Source of the DNA: a virus
Direction: 5' to 3' (one strand)
Virus record (IMG/VR): IMGVR_UViG_3300004461_000262
Location: 1-20,910 of that record
Length of the DNA: 20,910 nt
Part shown: piece by piece, positions 5,254 through 20,696 of the stretch
Position numbering within the stretch: the stretch's first letter is position 1
Layout: the number at the start of each line of letters is the position of its first letter
Notes under the pieces: model-generated
Told to the model about the DNA's origin: nothing
The model's input: only the letters and a program-made list of their open reading frames with translations
Database searches by the model: none
Position numbers and translations under genes: made by a program

Positions 5254-5276
5254 TAACAAAATAAAAAAAGGATACA

Positions 5277-6413
5277 ATGTGGATAATACCAAAGAACTTA
5301 CACACCTCTCGCTATGTAGCGGATATGAAGGGATTGGGCGTGGACTGCGAGCAGTTTTCCCAACTCTCAGAGAACTCGCTTATGTGGAGATCGAAACCTA
5401 CTGCATCGCCAACCTGGTCAAAGAGATGGAAACGGGTGTCTTGGATACAGCACCTATCTTCTCTAATCTTAAAACCTTCCCATACAGAAAGTTTCGTGGA
5501 AAGGTGGACATCCTCTCTGGAGGCTTCCCCTGCCAGCCTTTCTCAAATGCGGGATCGCGTCGCGGAACTGAAGACCCAAGACATCTGTTCCCTTACATCC
5601 GAGACGGAATTAGAGAGTGCAAACCTAGAATTGTTTGGCTCGAAAATGTTGAAGGAATTATCTCAGCAAAAACAGCCGAAGGAGAATCGGTTCTCCAATA
5701 TGTCCTCCGAGAACTGGAAGGACTGGGTTATATCGCAGAGGCAGGAGTATTCTCAGCGAGTGAAGTTGGCGCACCTCACCAAAGAAAAAGGGTCTTCATC
5801 TTGGGCTACTCCAAACACGATGGACACACTACCACCAAGGAGTTACGAAGCCGCGATGAGACAAGCGACGACAAGTCGAAAGGGCAGAACAGATCCGTCG
5901 AACTTGAGGGAGCAAGTGGACGAAACGTCGGTGCAAGCCTACAAGGATGCGATAAACTTTCCGACACCGAGAACATCGGATGCGGAGGGCGGTCGGATCG
6001 AGACGGTGATAGAGGACGGAGTATTCAAGAGCAAGAGGCACAAGAGCAACCAGACCTTTGGAGCCAAGCTGAGGGATGCGGTGGAAACTCACGAGGAGCA
6101 GAAGAAGTGGGCAACGCCAAGAGCGAGGGATTACAAGGGTGGCTACAGACCAGAGAGTATGATCCGCAAGGATGGCAAGAGCAGGATGGATGCCCTGCCC
6201 CAGATGGTAGAATACGATCCATCGAGCCGTCCAACTACCGATTCCCCAGTAGACCTGGAGAGCGTCAACAAGAATGGGAAGCACCAAGAGTCACCGCCAA
6301 ATCTTCAGAGATCAAGCGGACAGTTAAACCCAGATTGGGTGGAGCAGCTAATGGGTCTAACCATAGGATCGACAGACTTAGGCTCTTGGGGAACGGAGTT
6401 GTCCCACAAGTAG
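5277..6413 (+). CDS. Overlapping-frame phage protein (378 aa) inside the methyltransferase gene
   Basis: A second frame, offset from the methyltransferase, stays open for 378 codons from ATG 5277, two bases before the methyltransferase GTG and four bases after AAGGA. It contains three similar modules, SSWATPNTMD (174-183), FPTPRTSDAEGG (228-239) and WATPRARDYKGG (278-289), then LNPDWVEQLMGL (350-361). From memory these resemble phage hypothetical proteins with TP-x-x-x-D repeats and an LNPxWVExLMG end, whose frames also accompany Dcm genes. The modules fall opposite LGYSKHDG, LSDTENIGCGG and VGNAKSEGLQGW of the methyltransferase. Either it is a true dual-coded protein or a persistent shadow of a conserved enzyme; I lean slightly towards real. 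Function unknown. Confidence 0.5.
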   Translation: MWIIPKNLHTSRYVADMKGLGVDCEQFSQLSENSLMWRSKPTASPTWSKRWKRVSWIQHLSSLILKPSHTESFVERWTSSLEASPASLSQMRDRVAELKTQDICSLTSETELESANLELFGSKMLKELSQQKQPKENRFSNMSSENWKDWVISQRQEYSQRVKLAHLTKEKGSSSWATPNTMDTLPPRSYEAAMRQATTSRKGRTDPSNLREQVDETSVQAYKDAINFPTPRTSDAEGGRIETVIEDGVFKSKRHKSNQTFGAKLRDAVETHEEQKKWATPRARDYKGGYRPESMIRKDGKSRMDALPQMVEYDPSSRPTTDSPVDLESVNKNGKHQESPPNLQRSSGQLNPDWVEQLMGLTIGSTDLGSWGTELSHK

Positions 6414-6457
6414 CTACAAAGGCTTTCGTCACTTTATTTACTAGGTTATATGAATGA
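5279..6457 (+). CDS. DNA (cytosine-5-)-methyltransferase, orphan phage type
   Basis: The 392-residue enzyme would transfer methyl from S-adenosylmethionine to C5 of cytosine. Visible motifs: I, SLCSGYEGIGRG (11-22, AdoMet binding); IV, GGFPCQPFS with catalytic Cys 85; VI, VWLENVEG (119-126); VIII, GAPHQRKRVFILG (164-176); X, GNGVVPQVA (about 371-379). Residues about 180-340, between VIII and X, are hydrophilic and Gly/Arg/Glu-rich instead of a clear target-recognition domain, and this stretch is more GC-rich than its surroundings. GTG 5279 is chosen with AAGGA six bases upstream; the upstream TTG at 5234 lacks support. No cognate endonuclease is adjacent, so it probably protects phage DNA from host restriction or marks its own sites. 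Confidence 0.9.
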   Translation: MDNTKELTHLSLCSGYEGIGRGLRAVFPTLRELAYVEIETYCIANLVKEMETGVLDTAPIFSNLKTFPYRKFRGKVDILSGGFPCQPFSNAGSRRGTEDPRHLFPYIRDGIRECKPRIVWLENVEGIISAKTAEGESVLQYVLRELEGLGYIAEAGVFSASEVGAPHQRKRVFILGYSKHDGHTTTKELRSRDETSDDKSKGQNRSVELEGASGRNVGASLQGCDKLSDTENIGCGGRSDRDGDRGRSIQEQEAQEQPDLWSQAEGCGGNSRGAEEVGNAKSEGLQGWLQTREYDPQGWQEQDGCPAPDGRIRSIEPSNYRFPSRPGERQQEWEAPRVTAKSSEIKRTVKPRLGGAANGSNHRIDRLRLLGNGVVPQVATKAFVTLFTRLYE

Positions 6458-10315: not shown

Positions 10316-13300
10316 TTACTTGAGTAGACCAGAGGCTTCTACTTCTGCGTCCGAAGCCAATTCGCTCATTCTGCCAATTAACCTTGGGTCTTCTGAAGCC
10401 ATTTGTGTAAATAACTGGAACGCATTGTCTGAGCTATAAATGGCTGGCAACATAGATAACGTAAAGTCACTAGGTCTTCCAGCATTAACAAAATTAACAT
10501 AATTCTCATTGGCTAAAGCTATACCCAAAAACTTGTTGATTGGGACATCTAGATTTACACCAAGTATTACCCTAGGCATTACTTTGCTTGCGGCTGATCC
10601 GCCTCTAGCAATGAATTGACCTTGGTTTGCTTTAAGCAGTCCAGTAGTATAAATCTGATTTTCCCTGCCAACCCGGTCTAGTATTGTAGCAATATCCAAT
10701 ACATCCTGTAGCCCGTCTTCGCCTAATATTTTTAAGGCTACCTCACGAGGAGTAGATTTACTTTTTCTTAAATCTTCAAATATCTTAGCATCTATATCTG
10801 GCAATTTAGAACCACCAAACATTTCTCCCGTTCTCGACCCGGACCCTAAAGATGCTCCATCAAATATCCTTGCTCTTACCGACGCTCTAATGGCTTCCCT
10901 CGCAGGTTCGTCAAGAACGCTCATAAACTGTTCAACGTCCGCAGCACTTTTAAGACTTAGTAGTGCGTTTACCATACTGTTCGTATTGTCCGTACTCAGA
11001 TCGAAGCCCTTTTTCAATAGATCGAAAGCTTCATTTTTTCCTATTGCCTTTACTCTAAGGGATAGACTTGCTTCATCATTTAGTTTTCCTAAAATAATCG
11101 ACTTTTCCGCAGGGGTCATTATTTCAGGACCTGATTCCAACAATTTCTTTAAAGTACTTGGGGTAACGCTTCCACCAATATTCATTCCCAGTAAATCTTT
11201 TGAATATTTACCCGAGTAAACATTAGCAATTTTTTGTAACCTTTTTATTGTTTGCTTGTCAAAAAACTCATCAACCAAGTCATTGTTTTTTAATATGTCT
11301 TTTAATTTTGGTAAACTAATTAATGAGTCCCCTTGGTTTTCAGCTGCATTAAAAATTAAATCAATTGCAGAGTTTCTTATGGTTTGCGAAAATTCTTCTG
11401 GGTCTGGGGCGGCATTTCTAAGAGCAACTAAACCCTGAACCTGACCCTTTCTTGGTCTTAACAGGGCTTCGCTTATTTCGTTTGGGCTTAATTTTGTCTT
11501 AGTATTACCTAAAATACTCTGAAGGTTTCTATCTTCTAATAATGGAAGGCTTTTCTCTTTCCAGAGTTTGTTAGCATCTTTCAAAACATTAAAGGCATCC
11601 GAGTCGGCATCCTTTGCCATACCCTCAAGAAGTCCGTCTAGACCATCAATCATACTTCTTAGTTGTTTCTTGGCTAGGTAATCTCCTCTGGCAGCTTGAC
11701 CATATACCTGGTTTAATTGCTTTTTGGCGTTTACCAAATTTCTAAATGTCAGTTTTAACGGCTCTCCTGGGTCGGTCACTTCTGCTATACCCTCCAACAA
11801 AGGCATAAAGGTCATTTGATCTCCTTCCTGGAAAAGTGCCTTGTAGTCTTCAAACTCAGCTATTTGTTTTAATCTAGCCCTCGCTTGCTTACTTAAATCT
11901 TTAGCCTTGCTTAATTGTATCAAGACATTTTTTGGAATAAATGATCTAATAATTTGATCATTGGCTCCTCCGGGTAATTCCTTTACCAGAGCGTCCATAT
12001 TAATGATGCGTCTAGCGGCAGATAGCATATCAATACCATCTATGTCATCACCCATAGATAGAGCTTCATCGTAGAGAGAATCTACCTGTGCCTTGTTTGT
12101 CCTGAATATATTTAAAACATTGACTTGCAAGTCTTCGCCCAATTCTTTGGATGTCTTGCGCTGCAAGGTTGGAAGTACGTTTTCAGCCAAATTGTCAAAA
12201 TACTTAGATGTGGCTTTTGCCGCCATATCAAAAGATTCATCTCCAAGGTCTAAAGCTGCTTTAGATAAAGCCTTAAAATTGTCTTCTCCTATTCTTGCTA
12301 TTTGTTCAAAGGGAACCTCTTCTCCTTTTACTACCTTAATTATGGTTGAAAGGGCATCGTTGAATGCCATTCTGCCTTGTACCAGAGGAGCCTGCATATC
12401 GTCAGACACACCAGTAACCCTCAGAGCATCAACAACCTCCCCCTCTCGTATAGTTGCATCTGAACCTGCTCGCATTGATGGAGTAGCTTTTTGGGCTATA
12501 TCTACGCCCGTTCTTTGCTCCATTCTCTGCAGAACTTCCAAGAAGTCTTCGTATGTAACATCAGTTCCTCTAACTCCAGGAGCAGTAAATGCCTTTGCAA
12601 CTAGGGTAAACGGTTTTGAAAATCCGTAATCAAATGCTGCTGCAGTTGCACCCCTAGCAGCCGATTGACCAAATTCTATGTCTTTAAATCCAGTGTCAGG
12701 ATTTCCGTCACTAAAGGATTCAATTCCTTCGGAAACAACTTCTCCTCCTGCGGCTCCCAAACCCGCATATGCCGCTCTAGTAGCTACAGGCATTTTTGCT
12801 AACATCCCCGGAGCTGTTGCTCCCGGCAAAAGTAACGATGCACCCAACTCAGCACCTAAAACTACTGCGGGTCTTGCCAAATCTAGAACGTCGCCAAATG
12901 CAGCACCTTGCTCATCTACTAATACTTGCGTGTCACCCTTTTTAACTAGGAATGATGGCTTATTGCCAATGCTAAATTGAGTAACATTATCTTTTCCATA
13001 CCTATCTGCCAAAAAGTCAAACTTGCCCTCCGTGTCCTCTTGGAAGGACAACAAGCTTCTATTCAAAACGTCCCCAAGTCCAGAGCTTATATCAATTTTA
13101 CTTTCATCTACGTCTAAGGCTGAGGATAGATTACTTAACAATCCTTCTTTAATTCTACGATTTCTTTCTGCGCCATACCCAGGGTTTTTCATAGACATAG
13201 GAGAACCGCCCATTGGCATCATAGGCATAAATCCACCAGTTGTTTCTGGTCGCACAAATGGAAGTATGTTTTCTTCCTGTAGCTGAGTATCTATATCTCT

Positions 13301-13513
13301 AATGAACTGACCACTTAGTATGTTTTGGGTAGCGTCATATCTTTGCTGATAGCCAGTATCAATTGGAGGAGGCGTAAATACGGGCGTATCAAAACCTTGT
13401 CGCCTAGCAAGAACTCCTTCTATAGCCGAGTATTGCTCACCGCTAAGTTGAGGTAGTACACCTTCTAGTTGTTCGTCTGAAAGTGTAGAAATATAATCAA
13501 GATTTAACTCCAT
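10316..13513 (-). CDS. Large virion protein, probable internal/ejection protein, 1065 aa
   Basis: No enzymatic motif is recognised. The N-terminal 110 residues are Pro/Gly/Met-rich (FMPMMPMGGSPMSM), followed by an acidic region and a hydrophobic, Ala/Gly/Leu-rich stretch at about 213-265 that could insert in membranes. The remaining 800 residues are long polar helices. Great length, helix content and a membrane-active segment in a late gene block suggest an internal virion protein ejected with the DNA in podovirus-like phages; a tape-measure-like role is an alternative. The 9-nt gap after the preceding 737-aa gene and the lack of a clear Shine-Dalgarno suggest coupled translation. It is the last gene of the block, ending at the bidirectional terminator. 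Confidence 0.6.
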   Translation of the reverse strand: MELNLDYISTLSDEQLEGVLPQLSGEQYSAIEGVLARRQGFDTPVFTPPPIDTGYQQRYDATQNILSGQFIRDIDTQLQEENILPFVRPETTGGFMPMMPMGGSPMSMKNPGYGAERNRRIKEGLLSNLSSALDVDESKIDISSGLGDVLNRSLLSFQEDTEGKFDFLADRYGKDNVTQFSIGNKPSFLVKKGDTQVLVDEQGAAFGDVLDLARPAVVLGAELGASLLLPGATAPGMLAKMPVATRAAYAGLGAAGGEVVSEGIESFSDGNPDTGFKDIEFGQSAARGATAAAFDYGFSKPFTLVAKAFTAPGVRGTDVTYEDFLEVLQRMEQRTGVDIAQKATPSMRAGSDATIREGEVVDALRVTGVSDDMQAPLVQGRMAFNDALSTIIKVVKGEEVPFEQIARIGEDNFKALSKAALDLGDESFDMAAKATSKYFDNLAENVLPTLQRKTSKELGEDLQVNVLNIFRTNKAQVDSLYDEALSMGDDIDGIDMLSAARRIINMDALVKELPGGANDQIIRSFIPKNVLIQLSKAKDLSKQARARLKQIAEFEDYKALFQEGDQMTFMPLLEGIAEVTDPGEPLKLTFRNLVNAKKQLNQVYGQAARGDYLAKKQLRSMIDGLDGLLEGMAKDADSDAFNVLKDANKLWKEKSLPLLEDRNLQSILGNTKTKLSPNEISEALLRPRKGQVQGLVALRNAAPDPEEFSQTIRNSAIDLIFNAAENQGDSLISLPKLKDILKNNDLVDEFFDKQTIKRLQKIANVYSGKYSKDLLGMNIGGSVTPSTLKKLLESGPEIMTPAEKSIILGKLNDEASLSLRVKAIGKNEAFDLLKKGFDLSTDNTNSMVNALLSLKSAADVEQFMSVLDEPAREAIRASVRARIFDGASLGSGSRTGEMFGGSKLPDIDAKIFEDLRKSKSTPREVALKILGEDGLQDVLDIATILDRVGRENQIYTTGLLKANQGQFIARGGSAASKVMPRVILGVNLDVPINKFLGIALANENYVNFVNAGRPSDFTLSMLPAIYSSDNAFQLFTQMASEDPRLIGRMSELASDAEVEASGLLK

Positions 13514-13522
13514 ATTTTATTT

Positions 13523-15736
13523 TTAAAGATTAAACAAACTGTTAACATTTACTGGTGTATTAATATTTTTATTTCTACCAAGATCTCCCATTCTTACTCT
13601 CTCAATATTATCAGCAGATATAAACGGCAACTCGTTTTCTAATATATCAAAGGTTGTTCTGTATTGGTCATAAACCGTTATTTTCCCTTCAAGTGTTCTT
13701 TTCTTTTTATCTATTAATTGCTGAATAAGCGTAAGACTTGTCTCTCTGTCACTTGTTACACCATAACCACCCATAGCTTCAATAAGTCTTTGTGCATCTA
13801 TTTCTGTCAATACACCCGGACCAAGAACATCTATTCTAATCTCACCAAGCAACGCTTGGAAACCTGCCCTTGAAACAGCATTCCTCATAGCTTGGGGGTC
13901 TAAATCTTGACCAACAAAGTTTTGTATTTTACCTCTTAGGTTCGTAGCAAATTCTGCAAAACCCTCTTGGCTCATCTCTCTTGATTTTTTGAATTTTTCA
14001 AGAGTTCCTACGCCACCAGATTCTTCAAATATACCTGTTTGAAGCTCCATAGCCTTATTCCTAGCATCTTTTACATTTGCGGATGATGTAGGTGACCATT
14101 TGGTTATATCTTCTGGTTTAAATACGCCATCAGTCCCAACAGTTCCCCATTGACCAGTATCCATATTTTGACCCATCATAAGCGTCTCGTTGCTATCTCT
14201 ACTCTTCATCAATGTTGCGTCTTTTAATGATGCGCCATATTGCCCATATCCTTTCATAGAGTCATCAAGTTTGGTTTTTTGAGATGCAGATAAATCTGCT
14301 TGCATTGCTCCATACATCTTAACAAAGGCTTGAGGACTACCCGTAGCTTCTATACCTGCACGAATGCCCTTAATATCTAATTCTGAACCCAGAGGTTTTC
14401 CAGTCGTAGGATCATTATATTGACCCAAAAATCCCTGTATTGCTTCTGCGGATTGATTCAACTGTTTGTCTTGCAGTCTTTTTTGAACTGCCATTTCTGC
14501 CTGAATACCTCTAGCCTTATCTGATAAGGATGCTCTATACATTTTGCCCCTTGCAATAGCATTAGCCTCCGCTTGAGTTATGTCAGGTCCCTGACCTGCG
14601 GCTCTAGCAGATTCTCCTGCAAGAACTTTATTGCCTTGCTTGTCATAGTTGAAAGTAGCATTGAAAGGCAATCTATTCTTGATTTCATTTTGACTTTCGA
14701 GACTATCCTTATCGTAAGCAGCTTTGGATTCCAAAAAAGGTTTTTCCATCTCAGCCATAGCTTTTTGAAACTCTGGGCCTCTAACGTATTCATTATCCGC
14801 ATTTCTTTGTGCAGCAGCTTGTTGATCAGTTCTCATTTTCAACAAAGCGTTCATTTCTTCTACAGTTCTAGGTTCAAATTCACTTCCGTATGTAACACTA
14901 TTATTGCCTGGATTTGCATTAGTACCTATACGCATAACCTGAGCAGGATCACCAGTACCCATTAGCTGACCTAGTTCTTGGGCTTGTTGGAGTTTTTCAG
15001 AATCAAGAAGACCAGTAAAATTATTTGCATTTCTTTGAGCTTCGGCTCTAATGCTTTCTAAAAATCTTGGCTCATCATTAAATCCAGTTTCTCCCTGGAT
15101 AAATGTTTCAGCAGAAGGCAGTCGAGCAGATTGATTTCCAAACATCTGTTCAAACTGACCTATAGTAGGATTGAACCTATTGAATGGCTCTAGTCCAGGA
15201 CCCGGTTCAGACGAAATTCTAGGAGTAAGTGTGTTTTGAAAATCAACTAGATCTTGATTAGCTGCTCTTATATTGCCCAACAACTCGCCTACATCACTGC
15301 CCATAAAACCATTATCTCTAGAATAATGCTGCGTGCCGCCTAGTATAGCCCTATTTATGTTATTAGAACTGGTTTGATATTCTAGATCTTTGGAGGCGTT
15401 TATTGCTTTTTCTAAAGCACTAAAATTGGCAGAACCATAATTGGGAGAACCAAAAGAAGTTCCACCATATTTTTCCAATGCCGCTAAAGTGCCACCCGCG
15501 AGATTATCTGCAAGTCTGATGTTTTCCATCCCATAAACATTATCTACATATTGATCACTAAATCCTCCAGTCCCTCTTGAATTTAAATAGTTGTTTTCAA
15601 AATCAAACGCATCAGCGGGATTGTTAGAAGCGTTGGGGTTAAAAAGATCCGCTGGGGTTGAAGCACCTCCAAAGTTTCCAAAATTAGAGCTTGATCCTCC
15701 ACCGAGAAAGTCGTTTATGTTAAAGTCTTTAGCCAT
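13523..15736 (-). CDS. Large virion-associated protein, 737 aa
   Basis: The N-terminal 250 residues are Asn/Gly/Ser/Phe-rich and low in complexity; the middle (about 250-480) is Gln/Ala/Glu-rich helical; the C-terminal region holds FQALLGEIRIDVLGPGVLTEIDAQRLIEAMGG, a segment I recall from other phage virion proteins, followed by a helical stretch rich in Lys and Arg (IQQLIDKKKRTLEG). These features suit an internal virion or ejection protein acting with the 1065-aa neighbour. No catalytic motif is visible. Start ATG 15736 (MAKDFNINDFLGG) lacks a Shine-Dalgarno but follows the AT-rich sequence TATAATATAA. Confidence 0.55.
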   Translation of the reverse strand: MAKDFNINDFLGGGSSSNFGNFGGASTPADLFNPNASNNPADAFDFENNYLNSRGTGGFSDQYVDNVYGMENIRLADNLAGGTLAALEKYGGTSFGSPNYGSANFSALEKAINASKDLEYQTSSNNINRAILGGTQHYSRDNGFMGSDVGELLGNIRAANQDLVDFQNTLTPRISSEPGPGLEPFNRFNPTIGQFEQMFGNQSARLPSAETFIQGETGFNDEPRFLESIRAEAQRNANNFTGLLDSEKLQQAQELGQLMGTGDPAQVMRIGTNANPGNNSVTYGSEFEPRTVEEMNALLKMRTDQQAAAQRNADNEYVRGPEFQKAMAEMEKPFLESKAAYDKDSLESQNEIKNRLPFNATFNYDKQGNKVLAGESARAAGQGPDITQAEANAIARGKMYRASLSDKARGIQAEMAVQKRLQDKQLNQSAEAIQGFLGQYNDPTTGKPLGSELDIKGIRAGIEATGSPQAFVKMYGAMQADLSASQKTKLDDSMKGYGQYGASLKDATLMKSRDSNETLMMGQNMDTGQWGTVGTDGVFKPEDITKWSPTSSANVKDARNKAMELQTGIFEESGGVGTLEKFKKSREMSQEGFAEFATNLRGKIQNFVGQDLDPQAMRNAVSRAGFQALLGEIRIDVLGPGVLTEIDAQRLIEAMGGYGVTSDRETSLTLIQQLIDKKKRTLEGKITVYDQYRTTFDILENELPFISADNIERVRMGDLGRNKNINTPVNVNSLFNL

Positions 15737-15741
15737 TGCGT

Positions 15742-15762
15742 TATATTATACCATATATGGTT
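15742..15762 (-). promoter_or_regulatory. AT-rich TATAATATAA element plus 12-bp palindrome before the 737-aa gene
   Basis: Read on the minus strand, the palindrome ACCATATATGGT (15751-15762) runs into TATAATATAA (15742-15751) a few bases before the ATG at 15736. TATAAT is a perfect -10 hexamer, but no good -35 sequence is seen. The same TATAATATAA occurs upstream of the 198-aa gene (20728-20737). It could be a late promoter; evidence is motif-level only. Confidence 0.35.
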
Positions 15763-15771
15763 AGTGTTTTA

Positions 15772-16332
15772 TTATATCTTTAAAAAATGAAATTTTTGAC
15801 CCGGTTCCTTTATTGATTTAAATAATTCAATGTCCTTGGCGTAATACTTCTCGACTCTTGCTTTTTGGCTGTCAGTCAATATTAACTTTTTGCTACTTTT
15901 ATTTTCGTGGGGTATTTCACCGTCGTATCCTCCGTCGCGGAGCATTTGTTTGTAATCATCTGGGAATTTGTATAAGTGTATATCATCAAATAAAAAACAA
16001 GCATTTCGTAAAATAGTTGCAATGTCCATAAAATGCAGATTTCTAAAAGTGTTTTGTTCTAGCATTTCAATTAATTCATTAACACTATGCTCGGAGTATT
16101 TCTTATTTTTCCTTACTGTATTAACCGCAGATGCAAAACGCTCTACTGGATTACGGACTGGTATAAACAAAGAATTACGACCTTCATCTGTATCAATATT
16201 TGATATTCTGTTTATTAAGTTTGTGTAAGGCGTTGGATAACCAAGAATTAACGATGTTGAGGAATAACCACTTTTATAAACACAGGCTCCGAGTTTTCCG
16301 TTAGGATATTTAAATACTTTGATTGGAAACAT
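15772..16332 (-). CDS. Sulfotransferase-like protein, 186 aa
   Basis: The N-terminal VYKSGYSSTSLIL (18-30) resembles the 5-prime phosphosulfate-binding loop, and VRNPVERFASAV (59-70), with Arg 60 and Ser 68 spaced as in the 3-prime phosphate-binding motif, is the second cofactor signature of PAPS-dependent sulfotransferases (Sulfotransfer_2 type). The C-terminal LTDSQKARVEKYYAKDIELFKSI is also typical. It would transfer sulfate from PAPS to a sugar or other acceptor. At 186 residues it is short but spans both motifs. GGAG eight bases upstream lies at the end of the preceding virion gene, giving coupled translation. Placement in a virion operon is unusual; a role in modifying host surface or virion glycans is inference. 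Confidence 0.7.
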   Translation of the reverse strand: MFPIKVFKYPNGKLGACVYKSGYSSTSLILGYPTPYTNLINRISNIDTDEGRNSLFIPVRNPVERFASAVNTVRKNKKYSEHSVNELIEMLEQNTFRNLHFMDIATILRNACFLFDDIHLYKFPDDYKQMLRDGGYDGEIPHENKSSKKLILTDSQKARVEKYYAKDIELFKSIKEPGQKFHFLKI

Positions 16333-16333
16333 A

Positions 16334-17056
16334 TCAGTAACTCCAAAGGGTTAAGGATGGAATCTCGTCTGTTTCTGGCAAAAAGCTAGCTGGTTCGCAA
16401 ACAGCATTTCCACTGCCGACTGGATCATCATAAGTTTCAGCATAAAACTCCTTGATTACCGTCTTGACAAACGGTAAGCCGCCTATGGTTGTGCTGCTTA
16501 AATCGACGGTTCTTTTCCTTGCAGCTTTACCGATTGAATAAGTACTACCACCAGAAGTGGTATTGTTTAAAATAGTGCAAGTATATGGTACAGGATCACC
16601 ATAAGGCGAAGGGTTTTCTGCTATGGTTGAAGTATAATAAACGGAGGTAAGCTTTTGTATATTTTCGCCACCACCTTCGAAGGTGCTATATTCAAAAGAA
16701 ATTCCGTGTGCGTAATATGTTTTTTCGTCATCGCCTTGATCCTTAACTTTCCTGGGAGCGCCATTACTAATCGAAAAATTTTCTGAAGGAGGGCCAATTG
16801 AGTTATCGCTGTCCCTTCCTGTATTTGCGCTCGAATTGCATATTAAATCCCTAGGTTGAACTTCTCCTCCATCTTCGTTTGTTGGTTCAAGACTTGCTCC
16901 CGAAAAACTCGCGCTGTGAAAATTCCAATAAGCTGCAACTGCTTGTTTAAGTGTGGCTGGGTTAATAATTCTTGCGCTAGGGACGGTGTAAGTACTTAAA
17001 CATCGGTTAAACCCATTGCCCTTTCCTAGTGTTGTAAATGAAGTTGCGGTTGGCAT
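16334..17056 (-). CDS. Putative virion/tail protein, 240 aa
   Basis: The product is Ser/Thr/Gly/Asn-rich and beta-strand-like throughout (for example TYYAHGISFEYSTFEGGG and PVPYTCTILNNTTSGGSTYSIGK), with few charged helices, as in phage tail fibre or baseplate-like proteins. Four cysteines are spread through the sequence and no signal peptide or membrane segment is seen. It follows the 242-aa protein after 13 bases and precedes the sulfotransferase-like gene by one base. No family name is recognised; assignment rests on composition and context. Confidence 0.5.
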   Translation of the reverse strand: MPTATSFTTLGKGNGFNRCLSTYTVPSARIINPATLKQAVAAYWNFHSASFSGASLEPTNEDGGEVQPRDLICNSSANTGRDSDNSIGPPSENFSISNGAPRKVKDQGDDEKTYYAHGISFEYSTFEGGGENIQKLTSVYYTSTIAENPSPYGDPVPYTCTILNNTTSGGSTYSIGKAARKRTVDLSSTTIGGLPFVKTVIKEFYAETYDDPVGSGNAVCEPASFLPETDEIPSLTLWSY

Positions 17057-17069
17057 TACTGCTAAGTTA

Positions 17070-17798
17070 TTAAGCTACGTATGGTGCGGTTGATAAAATA
17101 TGTACGGTAGCAAGCTCTCCGTCTTTGCAAGCATCAAACTCCCTAAACTTTGCGGGTTCGTCAGCTTGATAACCGCTGTTCATATCTTGCATAAATAATT
17201 GTATTTTTTGCACTCCTCCTGGAGTCTCTATGACAAATCCTCCACCTTCTGCGTCTGGTTTAAAAACCATACCAGAGTAATTTATTTTTACGGCATTTAC
17301 AGTACCTCTTGCATTTGGAGCGCCAATGCCAAGAGCACCGTCTCCGTCAAAAGCATAATCAAACCAATCGTTCGCTCCTGTGTTTGGATCATTAGGATCT
17401 GTTGTGGGAGTTGAATTATCGTTTGGCGCGCCGCCCGAAGCACCACCCTGACTATTGCCGGGAGTGTCCTCACTGCTAATTGTGTCTACACCCTCTTGGT
17501 CGGTTGCTTTTTTATTCGTTTCTTGGCTGTTAAAGGTGGGCTGTGAGTATTGTTTACTGTCATAAATAATACCCTCTTCAAGCTTTCCCCTTTCTTCGTT
17601 TGTGCGATTTTGCACAATCTGACGCATTTCATCCGCAAGACCTCTTATTTCTCTGCTCCTACGACTACCACTAGACTGGCGAAGAGCTTGTTTTTCTAAG
17701 TTTTTAACAAATCTATTATCCGCCCTATCTCGCCTAGTTATTCGTTGGTTAGCGAGAGATATCTGATTCTGTTTATTTCGTTCGTCATCAAGAAACAT
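17070..17798 (-). CDS. Putative virion/tail protein with basic helical N-terminus, 242 aa
   Basis: Three parts are visible: residues about 1-80 form a strongly charged Arg/Lys/Glu/Gln helix, likely a coiled coil; 85-140 is a Gly/Asn/Pro/Asp/Ser/Thr linker (GASGGAPNDN, then TTDPNDPNTG); 142-242 is a compact strand-rich domain (WFDYAFDGDGALGIGAPNARG, VFKPDAEGGGFVIETPGG). This helix-linker-globule plan suits a tail attachment or adaptor protein. It overlaps the 654-aa gene by one base (TAATG). Family unknown. Confidence 0.5.
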   Translation of the reverse strand: MFLDDERNKQNQISLANQRITRRDRADNRFVKNLEKQALRQSSGSRRSREIRGLADEMRQIVQNRTNEERGKLEEGIIYDSKQYSQPTFNSQETNKKATDQEGVDTISSEDTPGNSQGGASGGAPNDNSTPTTDPNDPNTGANDWFDYAFDGDGALGIGAPNARGTVNAVKINYSGMVFKPDAEGGGFVIETPGGVQKIQLFMQDMNSGYQADEPAKFREFDACKDGELATVHILSTAPYVA

Positions 17799-19762
17799 TA
17801 TGCTGGCCCCAATCTATATTTTGATGTGCCATCTAAAGTAGCGGTAAATGCACTGGCGACTGTTACTTCACCGTTTATTCCACCGTAAGCGGTAATATTT
17901 CTGGACTCTCCACTTCCTGCACCCGCAGTAATAGTTAAAGCTACATTTTTAAATACATTGTCAAATGTAGTACTTTGCGGAATTTTAGTTTTAGTATGAT
18001 CTAACAAAAATTTAGTATTAGTAGTTCCTATATTTTGAGATATAAAACCCGTTCTTTCAAACCCATATAGTGTATAAAAAACACTTACTCCCGATGTATT
18101 ATAATCCGCAAAGCGAGTCAAGCCAGAACTAAGTGTTACTTTTTTTGTAGTAGTATTATAGTTAGTAATTGTCCTGGCTTCTTCTATTCCGCTTGTAATC
18201 ACATTATCTGAATTTCTAATAGTCAAACCACCCTTTGTTATTGCAATACAACTATGTTCTAAGTCAGATGCACTCGCAGGAGCCTTGTTGAAATCCAACT
18301 GAAGGACTGGTATGGTGTTAACATCGGAAAGTGTAACCATACCATCTATAACTTGTGAGTTACTAAATCTACCCGATGAACTAGCAAATTCTGATCCTAT
18401 CTGTTTTGTTCCTTCTGGAACATAACTAACTGTTCTTGTGGGAATTGTTGCCGTAGTAATTCTTTTTTTAAATGCAACCGTTCCGTCAATTGTTTCAAAA
18501 GCAGGAACTATAGTTATATCTAAAACAAATTTTGTGTTTTCTGGATCGGAAGGACCACCTTTCATACCTATATTAGCAGAATTTCCATTAAGTATAGGTC
18601 TTCCGTTAATTAAAAAATTTCCACTAAAATCCGAGGCTGGTTCTGTAACTACAATATCTAAATCTAAAAAAGCTCTATAGCCTCGCAGTGCATCCGTTCT
18701 GCTAAATGGATTTTTATTTATATCTACACCAGAAGAATATGAAGAAGCCCAGGATTGGGGGTTATATAAGCCTCCTGTAGCGTTGTCATATTGTTTGTCT
18801 TCTGCAGTAACTGTAGAGCTTTTTTGTATAAAAACAAAAGTTTTGGTATCTATTAAGGACTCAGCGGGGGGAGTTAAATAATATTCAAATGATGTAATGT
18901 CATCTCGATCTGAATATGACCTAGCGTCAATAGTTCTTTCTACTAAATTTACAACCCCTGGATACGTAAATGTATCTAAGCTGCTGTGAGTTGATATAGG
19001 CGTAACTGAACTTAAGGGGTTATCAAGTAATACAGAACTACCCGATTTGTCCTGCAAGGTAGTTACAGTTATTGTTTTTAGTCCAGAGGTATTATCTACA
19101 GATCGCCTGATAATAGGTCCTACCGTAGTTCCTTCTGTTACTAAAAATTCTGTAATTACTTGAATAATTCCATCTTTTAAATTGCTTTTTGAAATGTTAA
19201 GAGTTCCTGGCTCTAGCCAAGTTTCTTGAATTCTAGTGTAGCCTCCCTCGTCAGCATCTAAAACATCTTCTTGCACTGCCCCAAGTGTCAATGTCTTTGT
19301 TCCATAACCAATGGCACTATGATCTACTAGCGTAGCAGTACCTACAACTAAACCATAAGAAGTTCCAGATTTTGCTATTACAGTTCGAGTAACTCTTCTT
19401 AGACCATTTAATTCGTGATCTACTTTTTCCTGATTTTCTTGTACATATGTATCCGTAAGCGTTTCATATGTAAAAGTTATTACATAATCTCCAGTATTAG
19501 TATAACCCGCTTCATTTTGAACCAAAGCCATATTGGGGTATGCTTCCCCAATTCTCGGATCAATGCCCTCGATGGACATTGGATCAATATAGAGAGTTCC
19601 AAAGCTCGCAAAGATTTGAGCTTTATTGGAATTATACCAAGCTTCGGTGTCATTGTTAGCTGTACACCTGACTACAAGCTCATACCTGCCGTTGTGCAGT
19701 TGGGTTACCTCTACACGGCTACCATAAATCTTTAGCCGCTGACTTCTATGGAATACTGGCAT
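17798..19762 (-). CDS. Large beta-rich tail/fibre-like protein, 654 aa
   Basis: The protein is almost entirely short beta-strands with Thr, Ser, Val and Gly-rich turns, lacks cysteine-rich or catalytic motifs and contains repeated strand-loop segments (for example GYGTKTLTLGAVQEDVLDADEG). The N-terminal 150 residues look more globular (RLKIYGSRVEVTQLHNGRYELVVRC), possibly the virion-anchoring domain, and the rest may be an elongated fibre. No lytic or depolymerase motif is recognised. It lies at the centre of the virion gene block; function from composition and context only. Confidence 0.55.
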   Translation of the reverse strand: MPVFHRSQRLKIYGSRVEVTQLHNGRYELVVRCTANNDTEAWYNSNKAQIFASFGTLYIDPMSIEGIDPRIGEAYPNMALVQNEAGYTNTGDYVITFTYETLTDTYVQENQEKVDHELNGLRRVTRTVIAKSGTSYGLVVGTATLVDHSAIGYGTKTLTLGAVQEDVLDADEGGYTRIQETWLEPGTLNISKSNLKDGIIQVITEFLVTEGTTVGPIIRRSVDNTSGLKTITVTTLQDKSGSSVLLDNPLSSVTPISTHSSLDTFTYPGVVNLVERTIDARSYSDRDDITSFEYYLTPPAESLIDTKTFVFIQKSSTVTAEDKQYDNATGGLYNPQSWASSYSSGVDINKNPFSRTDALRGYRAFLDLDIVVTEPASDFSGNFLINGRPILNGNSANIGMKGGPSDPENTKFVLDITIVPAFETIDGTVAFKKRITTATIPTRTVSYVPEGTKQIGSEFASSSGRFSNSQVIDGMVTLSDVNTIPVLQLDFNKAPASASDLEHSCIAITKGGLTIRNSDNVITSGIEEARTITNYNTTTKKVTLSSGLTRFADYNTSGVSVFYTLYGFERTGFISQNIGTTNTKFLLDHTKTKIPQSTTFDNVFKNVALTITAGAGSGESRNITAYGGINGEVTVASAFTATLDGTSKYRLGPA

Positions 19763-19764
19763 TG

Positions 19765-20070
19765 TTATACTATTTGCCTAACGCCATAGGTTGCGCCCTG
19801 CTTGGTTTTTTTTACGGCATAGCTTGGATGTTTATTTCTAATAAATTCTTTTCTTTTAGCTTCCGACATAGCTGGACCTTTTCCATCATCTGCACCAGAA
19901 GCATATGATCGTGTAGATGGTTTTTTAGATGATGGATTAGTACTGGGTCTACCAGACTCGGAGCTTTTTGCCCTAGCAATGACTACACCCATACCTGGGT
20001 ACGACACATCATATTTACTTGTATCAAATGTTGCTATAGGTTTTCTTTGGGGCCAAAATAAAAGAGACAT
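19765..20070 (-). CDS. Hypothetical small basic protein, 101 aa
   Basis: Not recognised. The N-terminal 35 residues are strand-like (FWPQRKPIATFDTSKYDVSYPGMGVVIARA), the middle (about 36-72) is a Ser/Lys/Pro/Gly-rich linker, and the C-terminal part (SEAKRKEFIRNKHPSYAVKKTKQ) is basic and helical, possibly binding nucleic acid or anchoring to the virion. It ends two bases before the 654-aa gene. The leader before ATG 20070 is AT-rich and lacks a Shine-Dalgarno. Confidence 0.5.
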   Translation of the reverse strand: MSLLFWPQRKPIATFDTSKYDVSYPGMGVVIARAKSSESGRPSTNPSSKKPSTRSYASGADDGKGPAMSEAKRKEFIRNKHPSYAVKKTKQGATYGVRQIV

Positions 20071-20099
20071 AATAATTTTAATTTTTTTAGTTTAATCGA

Positions 20100-20696
20100 C
20101 TATTGTACTATTCTTCTAGAAAAATCTATTGTAGGTGCTAGATTTGTAACTACTGGGGGAGCAGAATTTATAACCTGAAAGCGACCTTTTTTCTGTACTG
20201 ATCTTCCCGGGGATGCTCCAATTAAAGGCGCTCTGCTTCCGTATTCTGTCATAGCATCCTGCGCGGATAGACCTCCTAATTTACTCGAAGAAGACATACC
20301 AGTTCCTCTTTGTGCGGCATTTATATTACTTAGAATTTCTTGTCCAACAGTATAATTTTTTACCGGGTCTCTAAAAGTTTTAGAATTTTCCCCCTGGTTA
20401 ACCGTATATGTTTTGGTTCTTTGCGGGTCCGAAATGCGATCCTCCATTAATTGGGTTCGCATATTTTTGTATTTCTCTTTTTGGTCATTTCGTATCTTTT
20501 GACCGCCCGCACCATCAAGATATTTAGCTATATTCATCCTTGACCTATACGGACCTGCCTTACTTGAATCATATTGAGGCAGCACCCTGCCATCGCGACC
20601 TGTAGGTAAATCTTTTTTACTAAATCCGTTGCCATAGAGTCTATTGACATCCTCTATAGCTTTTTTTTGTACTGATCTTTGCAATCTAACTCCCAT
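20100..20696 (-). CDS. Hypothetical basic protein, 198 aa, with repeated RSVQKK
   Basis: No domain is recognised. The sequence is basic, with many Arg, Lys and Gln and low hydrophobicity, and the hexapeptide RSVQKK occurs at residues 7-12 and again at 165-170. The C-terminal 30 residues are Pro/Val-rich (SAPPVVTNLAPTIDFSRRIVQ). The start lacks a Shine-Dalgarno; the leader is a 7-bp TTAATTG repeat tract. Position upstream of virion genes suggests a late gene; function unknown. Confidence 0.5.
   Translation of the reverse strand: MGVRLQRSVQKKAIEDVNRLYGNGFSKKDLPTGRDGRVLPQYDSSKAGPYRSRMNIAKYLDGAGGQKIRNDQKEKYKNMRTQLMEDRISDPQRTKTYTVNQGENSKTFRDPVKNYTVGQEILSNINAAQRGTGMSSSSKLGGLSAQDAMTEYGSRAPLIGASPGRSVQKKGRFQVINSAPPVVTNLAPTIDFSRRIVQ

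Follow-up and report, generated by a model that had tools for sequence, protein, structure and literature searches.

Two overlapping reading frames at a phage locus predicted to encode the catalytic and specificity subunits of one C5-methyltransferase

Organization of the locus

The window, i.e. the whole stretch of DNA analysed here, is a 20,910-base phage contig (IMG/VR record) in which genes for a gamma-glutamyl cyclotransferase, replication initiation, an exonuclease, a DNA methyltransferase (MTase), an endonuclease VII, an Erf annealing protein and a DnaB helicase follow one another. The same gene order is found in phage C75C1. At the MTase gene, two frames are open on the forward strand. 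One of them, hereafter beta (5277..6413), starts with an ATG and encodes 378 aa, predicted to form a specificity/motif IX subunit. The other, alpha (5279..6457), encodes 392 aa from a GTG (alternative start: TTG 5234) and is the predicted C5-MTase catalytic subunit. The two starts are 2 bases apart, with a single Shine-Dalgarno (SD)-like AAGGA (5268..5272, forward strand) upstream of both, and the overlap extends over 376 codons; the third frame contains 24 stops across the same stretch. The first-pass annotation had pointed out ATG 5277 and GTG 5279 behind one AAGGA, with more than 370 codons open in both frames, and had put all other off-frame shadow ORFs below 180. Both statements hold, the longest other off-frame ORF anywhere in the window reaching 178 aa.

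Relatives were collected by a search with the beta protein, which gave 62 viral loci with identity down to 29%, and phages C75C1 and Ssp-JY39 were added (loci are designated below by L numbers). The twin start ATGTGG is conserved in 49 of 51 loci, and in the two others alpha has its own ATG slightly upstream. An SD-like sequence precedes the start in 39 out of 51 loci. Elsewhere in the window, a reverse-strand block of eight ORFs (10316-20696, up to 1065 aa) adjoins the forward replication and recombination genes; a PHROG search with these eight ORFs gave zero matches.

The alpha frame as a catalytic chain

Alpha matches PF00145 (3.4e-34) and carries, in order and on the forward strand, the C5-MTase motifs I (SLCSGYEGIG, 5309..5338), IV (GGFPCQ, 5519..5536, with the catalytic Cys85), VI (ENV, 5642..5650), VIII (PHQRKRVFIL, 5774..5803) and X (GNGVVPQVA, 6389..6415), so that all five motifs listed by the first-pass annotation were recovered. 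The motif residues, among which P84, C85 and Q86 in motif IV and E122, N123 and V124 in motif VI, are invariant across 36 relatives. In phage B22 of Propionibacterium (L073, CDS 584-2683), a long insert splits motif IV between PC and CQ; this intein-like insert starts with FVAGTSVLTHDG, ends with FIAAGIVVHN and is absent from the relative L093.

AlphaFold modelled alpha with confidence over most of residues 4-180 and at the helix of motif X. Between them, residues 181-371 (5819..6391, forward strand), which lie opposite the beta modules described below, mostly have a pLDDT below 50 and no secondary structure; this stretch of about 190 residues is predicted to be a disordered linker. In Foldseek comparisons with M.HhaI and M.HaeIII, about 173 of the 327 residues were aligned. 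The disorder of residues 181-371 and this partial structural match indicate that the alpha model is devoid of the DNA-reading small domain, i.e. the recognition domain and motif IX, which was not found in alpha's own chain. Motif IX itself was sought in alpha and is absent from it, being present in the beta frame only. By its motifs and its predicted fold, alpha is therefore a C5-MTase with the small domain missing from its own chain.

Both frames are open and under selection

The openness of both frames was compared with 500 synonymous shuffles of the window locus, in which the alpha amino acids and codon usage were kept. These shuffles contained on average 6.3 beta stops (minimum 2), and none of the 500 was free of stops. 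Conversely, 15.7 alpha stops are expected when beta is preserved (minimum 7). Stops in the beta frame of close relatives would have spoken against the dual coding proposed by the first-pass annotation: zero were found in 52 out of 52 distinct loci. In the region of motifs I-VIII alone, 24 loci display 0 beta stops against 82 expected. Alpha is also open through its second half in most loci.

We then compared the divergence at four-fold sites in the first half of alpha with that in single-coded neighbour genes. Between the window and its close relatives L003, L004 and L005, respectively, 5/56, 4/55 and 5/55 alpha sites differ, versus 73/264, 77/258 and 78/170 sites in the neighbours (Fisher P = 0.002, 0.0003 and 3e-7), i.e. 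a three- to five-fold lower divergence in alpha; these counts are small and come from one clade, while the switch of constraint described next recurs in other groups. This strong depletion at synonymous sites of the MTase frame is the second signature that dual coding called for. Frame-specific substitution rates show that constraint bears more on alpha than on beta up to motif VIII (alpha dNN/dSN 0.11-0.25). Beyond it, beta becomes the constrained frame (dNN/dNS 0.11-0.40), with alpha far looser (0.6-0.9). Identity counts give the same picture, alpha being more conserved than beta upstream of motif VIII in 880 of 889 pairs and beta more conserved than alpha downstream of it in 843 of 889. The constraint thus passes from the alpha frame to the beta frame at motif VIII. 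Within the second half, an alpha-constrained island corresponds to the alpha element FPSRPGERQQEWEAPRV (6242..6292, forward strand): at beta codons 325-342, the alpha wobble position is again freer than the beta one.

Overlapping frames can impose patterns on each other, and before motif VIII the beta pattern partly mirrors the alpha motifs, as would be expected if beta only shadowed the MTase frame and were not translated. This explanation is however highly improbable, since no alpha-preserving shuffle leaves beta open in the window, the synonymous sites of alpha are depleted, and beta surpasses alpha in conservation downstream of motif VIII and remains open in about 10 loci in which alpha is broken. 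The last two observations also answer the concern that beta conservation might be fully explained by the MTase frame. On the basis of the shuffles, the neighbour-gene comparison and the frame-specific rates, the shadow explanation was rejected. The alpha and beta frames are both under selection, and chance falls far short of explaining their openness and constraint.

The beta frame: motif IX and swappable modules

Beta matches PHROG 1008, annotated as 'DNA methyltransferase' (4e-15); the profile covers beta and then, farther along, the motif X of alpha. The search of beta against Pfam gave zero matches, a profile search against solved structures yielded no match of beta to a small domain, and the AF2 model is of low confidence (pLDDT 50). 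The protein starts with a nearly invariant MWIIPKNL, from the conserved ATG. Its second half contains the three W/F-x-T-P modules, at residues 176, 228 and 278, and the LNPDWVEQLMG end that had been reported in the first-pass annotation. Together, the W-[AP]-T-P modules and LNPDWVEQLMGL occupy the interval corresponding to the small domain that is missing in alpha. The terminal element (6324..6356, forward strand) is nearly invariant. In phages MidnightRain and B22, its equivalent (LSPRFTEWMMGLPDGWVTD and LSARFVEWMMGLPDGWVTD) shares one frame with motif X, which identifies LNPDWVEQLMGL of beta as motif IX. Two motif IX copies occur in the beta frame of L040 and of L089, a Paenibacillus polymyxa plasmid (LNPRWVETLMG; LNPTWVECLMG and LNPAWVECLMG), which resembles a duplication of the gene end.

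Modules A (WATPNTMD..., 5802..5957) and B (FPTPRTSD..., 5958..6107), both on the forward strand, were each found in 18 of the loci compared, and module C (WATPRARDYKG..., 6108..6227, end approximate, same strand) in 14. After trimming, the beta modules cluster into 73 classes. Their order is A-B-C in the window, Z-A-B-C in L003, A-C in L004, J-A-C in L005, A-B-E-C in L008, D-B-E-C in L013 and B-J-D in the bacterial relative L078: loci that are otherwise similar differ by gain, loss or exchange of entire modules. Such a mosaic is the pattern that we would expect of tandem target-recognition domains like those of the multi-specific Bacillus phage enzymes (PMC8936443), and each module may read its own target, the enzyme being in that case multi-specific. 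A module with a large extra domain (...TIEHWFRYDTSGFSYPSIEDWYTIKPFL...), absent from close relatives, was observed at about residues 320-455 of the beta of L028.

The first-pass annotation had considered three roles for beta, i.e. a modulator of the MTase, an anti-restriction protein or no product at all, none of which is the best reading of these data. The first two amount to an independent protein whose gene merely overlaps that of the MTase. Its own start and its N-terminal half, constrained and free of MTase motifs, fit such a protein, but beta contains motif IX, joined by motif X in some relatives. Moreover, its modules fill the position of the recognition domain absent in alpha, and module, IX and X all sit in the catalytic frame in other relatives. 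We consider an independent beta protein quite improbable. Judged from its sequence, beta is most likely an integral part of the enzyme, predicted to be its target-recognition/motif IX subunit.

Relatives with rearranged frames

Three groups of loci provide natural REARRANGEMENTS, with an altered alpha/beta layout. In the first group (L023, L028, L029, L032, L033, L036 and L038; 10 loci once near-copies are counted), the alpha frame terminates directly after motif VIII and 7-34 in-frame alpha stops lie ahead of motif X, while beta is open throughout. The second case is L084 (Alicyclobacillus fructus), in which alpha ends after motif VIII and beta consists of the modules, motif IX, a QYEWEPPR element and motif X; motifs IX and X are both in beta in L058, L077 and L082 as well. 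The third group comprises L073, L093, L094 and L090, a Euzebya plasmid; there, the catalytic frame contains a PTP module as well as IX and X. All three layouts assign the beta sequence to the place that the recognition domain takes in an ordinary enzyme. In L093 and L094, only the last PTP module is in the catalytic frame with IX and X, the earlier modules being in the +1 frame, and the beta frame of L093 terminates about where the in-frame module starts.

The retention of motif X in the alpha frame past many stops, in about 10 L023-type loci, is not explained by a simple two-chain model. It fits a single polypeptide produced by ribosomal frameshifting, running from alpha (I-VIII) to beta (modules, IX) and back to alpha (X), the remaining halves of the frames being shadow. 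The strongest selection, which runs through alpha, then beta, then alpha, fits it too. Frameshifting nevertheless leaves unexplained the open and constrained first half of beta, from its conserved ATG (MWIIPKNL), and the openness of alpha in its second half in most loci. In addition, inspection by eye of the motif VIII junction revealed no shared slippery sequence. Overall, we regard frameshifting as unlikely. In several L023-type loci, an ATG with an SD-like sequence precedes motif X, which suggests a third polypeptide and possibly a three-piece methyltransferase.

Another irregularity is a TAG at alpha codon 118 of L049 and L050, between motifs IV and VI (VEPL*FFGENV), with beta open; it counts against a two-subunit enzyme.

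A probable two-subunit enzyme from twin starts

Taking these data together, the locus probably encodes one two-subunit C5-MTase, whose alpha and beta chains are translated separately from the twin starts and assembled, alpha catalysing the reaction and beta selecting the target. Alpha (from GTG 5279) would form the large catalytic domain, in which the disordered linker connects motifs I-VIII to the motif X helix. Beta (from ATG 5277) would supply in trans the recognition domain, made of swappable modules, and motif IX. Both chains would be made from the twin start codons and would assemble into one enzyme. By analogy with the family, methylation would shield the phage DNA from host restriction.

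Comparison with known systems

Two-polypeptide C5-MTases are represented by M.EcoHK31I, which recognizes YGGCCR, and by M.EaeI. In a 1995 paper, the small-subunit gene of M.EcoHK31I was reportedly nested inside the large one, in another frame. As at the present locus, the large subunit carries motifs I-VIII and X but lacks IX, which is on a second polypeptide, here a predicted one. According to the published description, M.EcoHK31I alpha bears I-VIII and X and its beta bears IX (PMC3404938). The likeness lies in this division of labour, by which the two systems would work alike. The same source assigns the predicted target-recognition domain of M.EcoHK31I to its large subunit (PMC3404938), whereas the evidence presented here places it in beta. 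New with respect to M.EcoHK31I are the near-complete overlap, beta covering nearly all of alpha from starts 2 bases apart, the several swappable modules of a beta that is probably multi-specific, and the wide spread among phages and bacteria.

In M.AquI, as predicted for the window, motif IX and the catalytic motifs belong to separate chains. However, M.AquI carries IX and X together on its smaller subunit, whereas the window has X on the alpha side and a 376-codon overlap between the genes. The presence of IX and X together in the small subunit, not found in the window, is found in L058, L082 and L084, and L084 has nearly the split of M.AquI (alpha I-VIII; beta modules, IX and X). The multi-specific C5-MTases of the Bacillus phages SPbeta, SPR and H2 have tandem recognition domains between motifs VIII and IX (PMC8936443). 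These enzymes are single chains in a single frame, whereas the tandem swappable modules of the window lie in the other frame.

Among isolated phages, a close counterpart is gp50/gp51 of Paenibacillus phage Rani, with the same second-protein family, the +1 frame relation and motif IX in the internal gene. In Rani, 67 codons of alpha precede an internal beta start, while both frames of the window locus begin at the same start.

Distribution and annotation

The layout of the window is found in isolated phages of Paenibacillus, Rhodobacter, Synechococcus, Acidovorax and Cylindrospermopsis, and relatives are present at 11 loci on bacterial genome contigs. PHROG 1008 matches were obtained in 18 of 399 sampled genomes of the phylum of Shimia and in 3 of 399 of that of Alicyclobacillus. 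In these sampled bacterial genomes, motif IX, where found, is in the beta frame, and IV, VIII or X are mostly in the alpha frame. A plasmid search with the beta of L058 gave two distant matches only. Catalytic and specificity subunits overprinted over almost their whole length might constitute a widespread class in phages and bacteria, with modules gained, lost and swapped as cassettes open in both frames and some lineages in three pieces; we propose this broader view tentatively, the chances being slightly below even.

The annotation of these loci is inconsistent, alpha being called in some records and beta in others. In the Rani record, beta is labelled 'g50 Internal gene' and named DNA methyltransferase, its role as a subunit being unstated. 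A literature search, which covered few subscription journals and is thus weak evidence, did not turn up any account of this phage family.

Implications

A near-complete same-strand overlap of two long genes, both under measurable selection, is rare. Since phages of many hosts, and bacteria too, share this overlap, many annotations as 'DNA methylase' may correspond to half an enzyme, and the specificity half may stand unannotated or as a hypothetical protein. If the two-subunit reading is right, methylation specificity must be read from the other frame and not from the annotated MTase, and the beta modules would be candidate recognition cassettes. The locus is also a natural test of two proteins sharing one DNA sequence.
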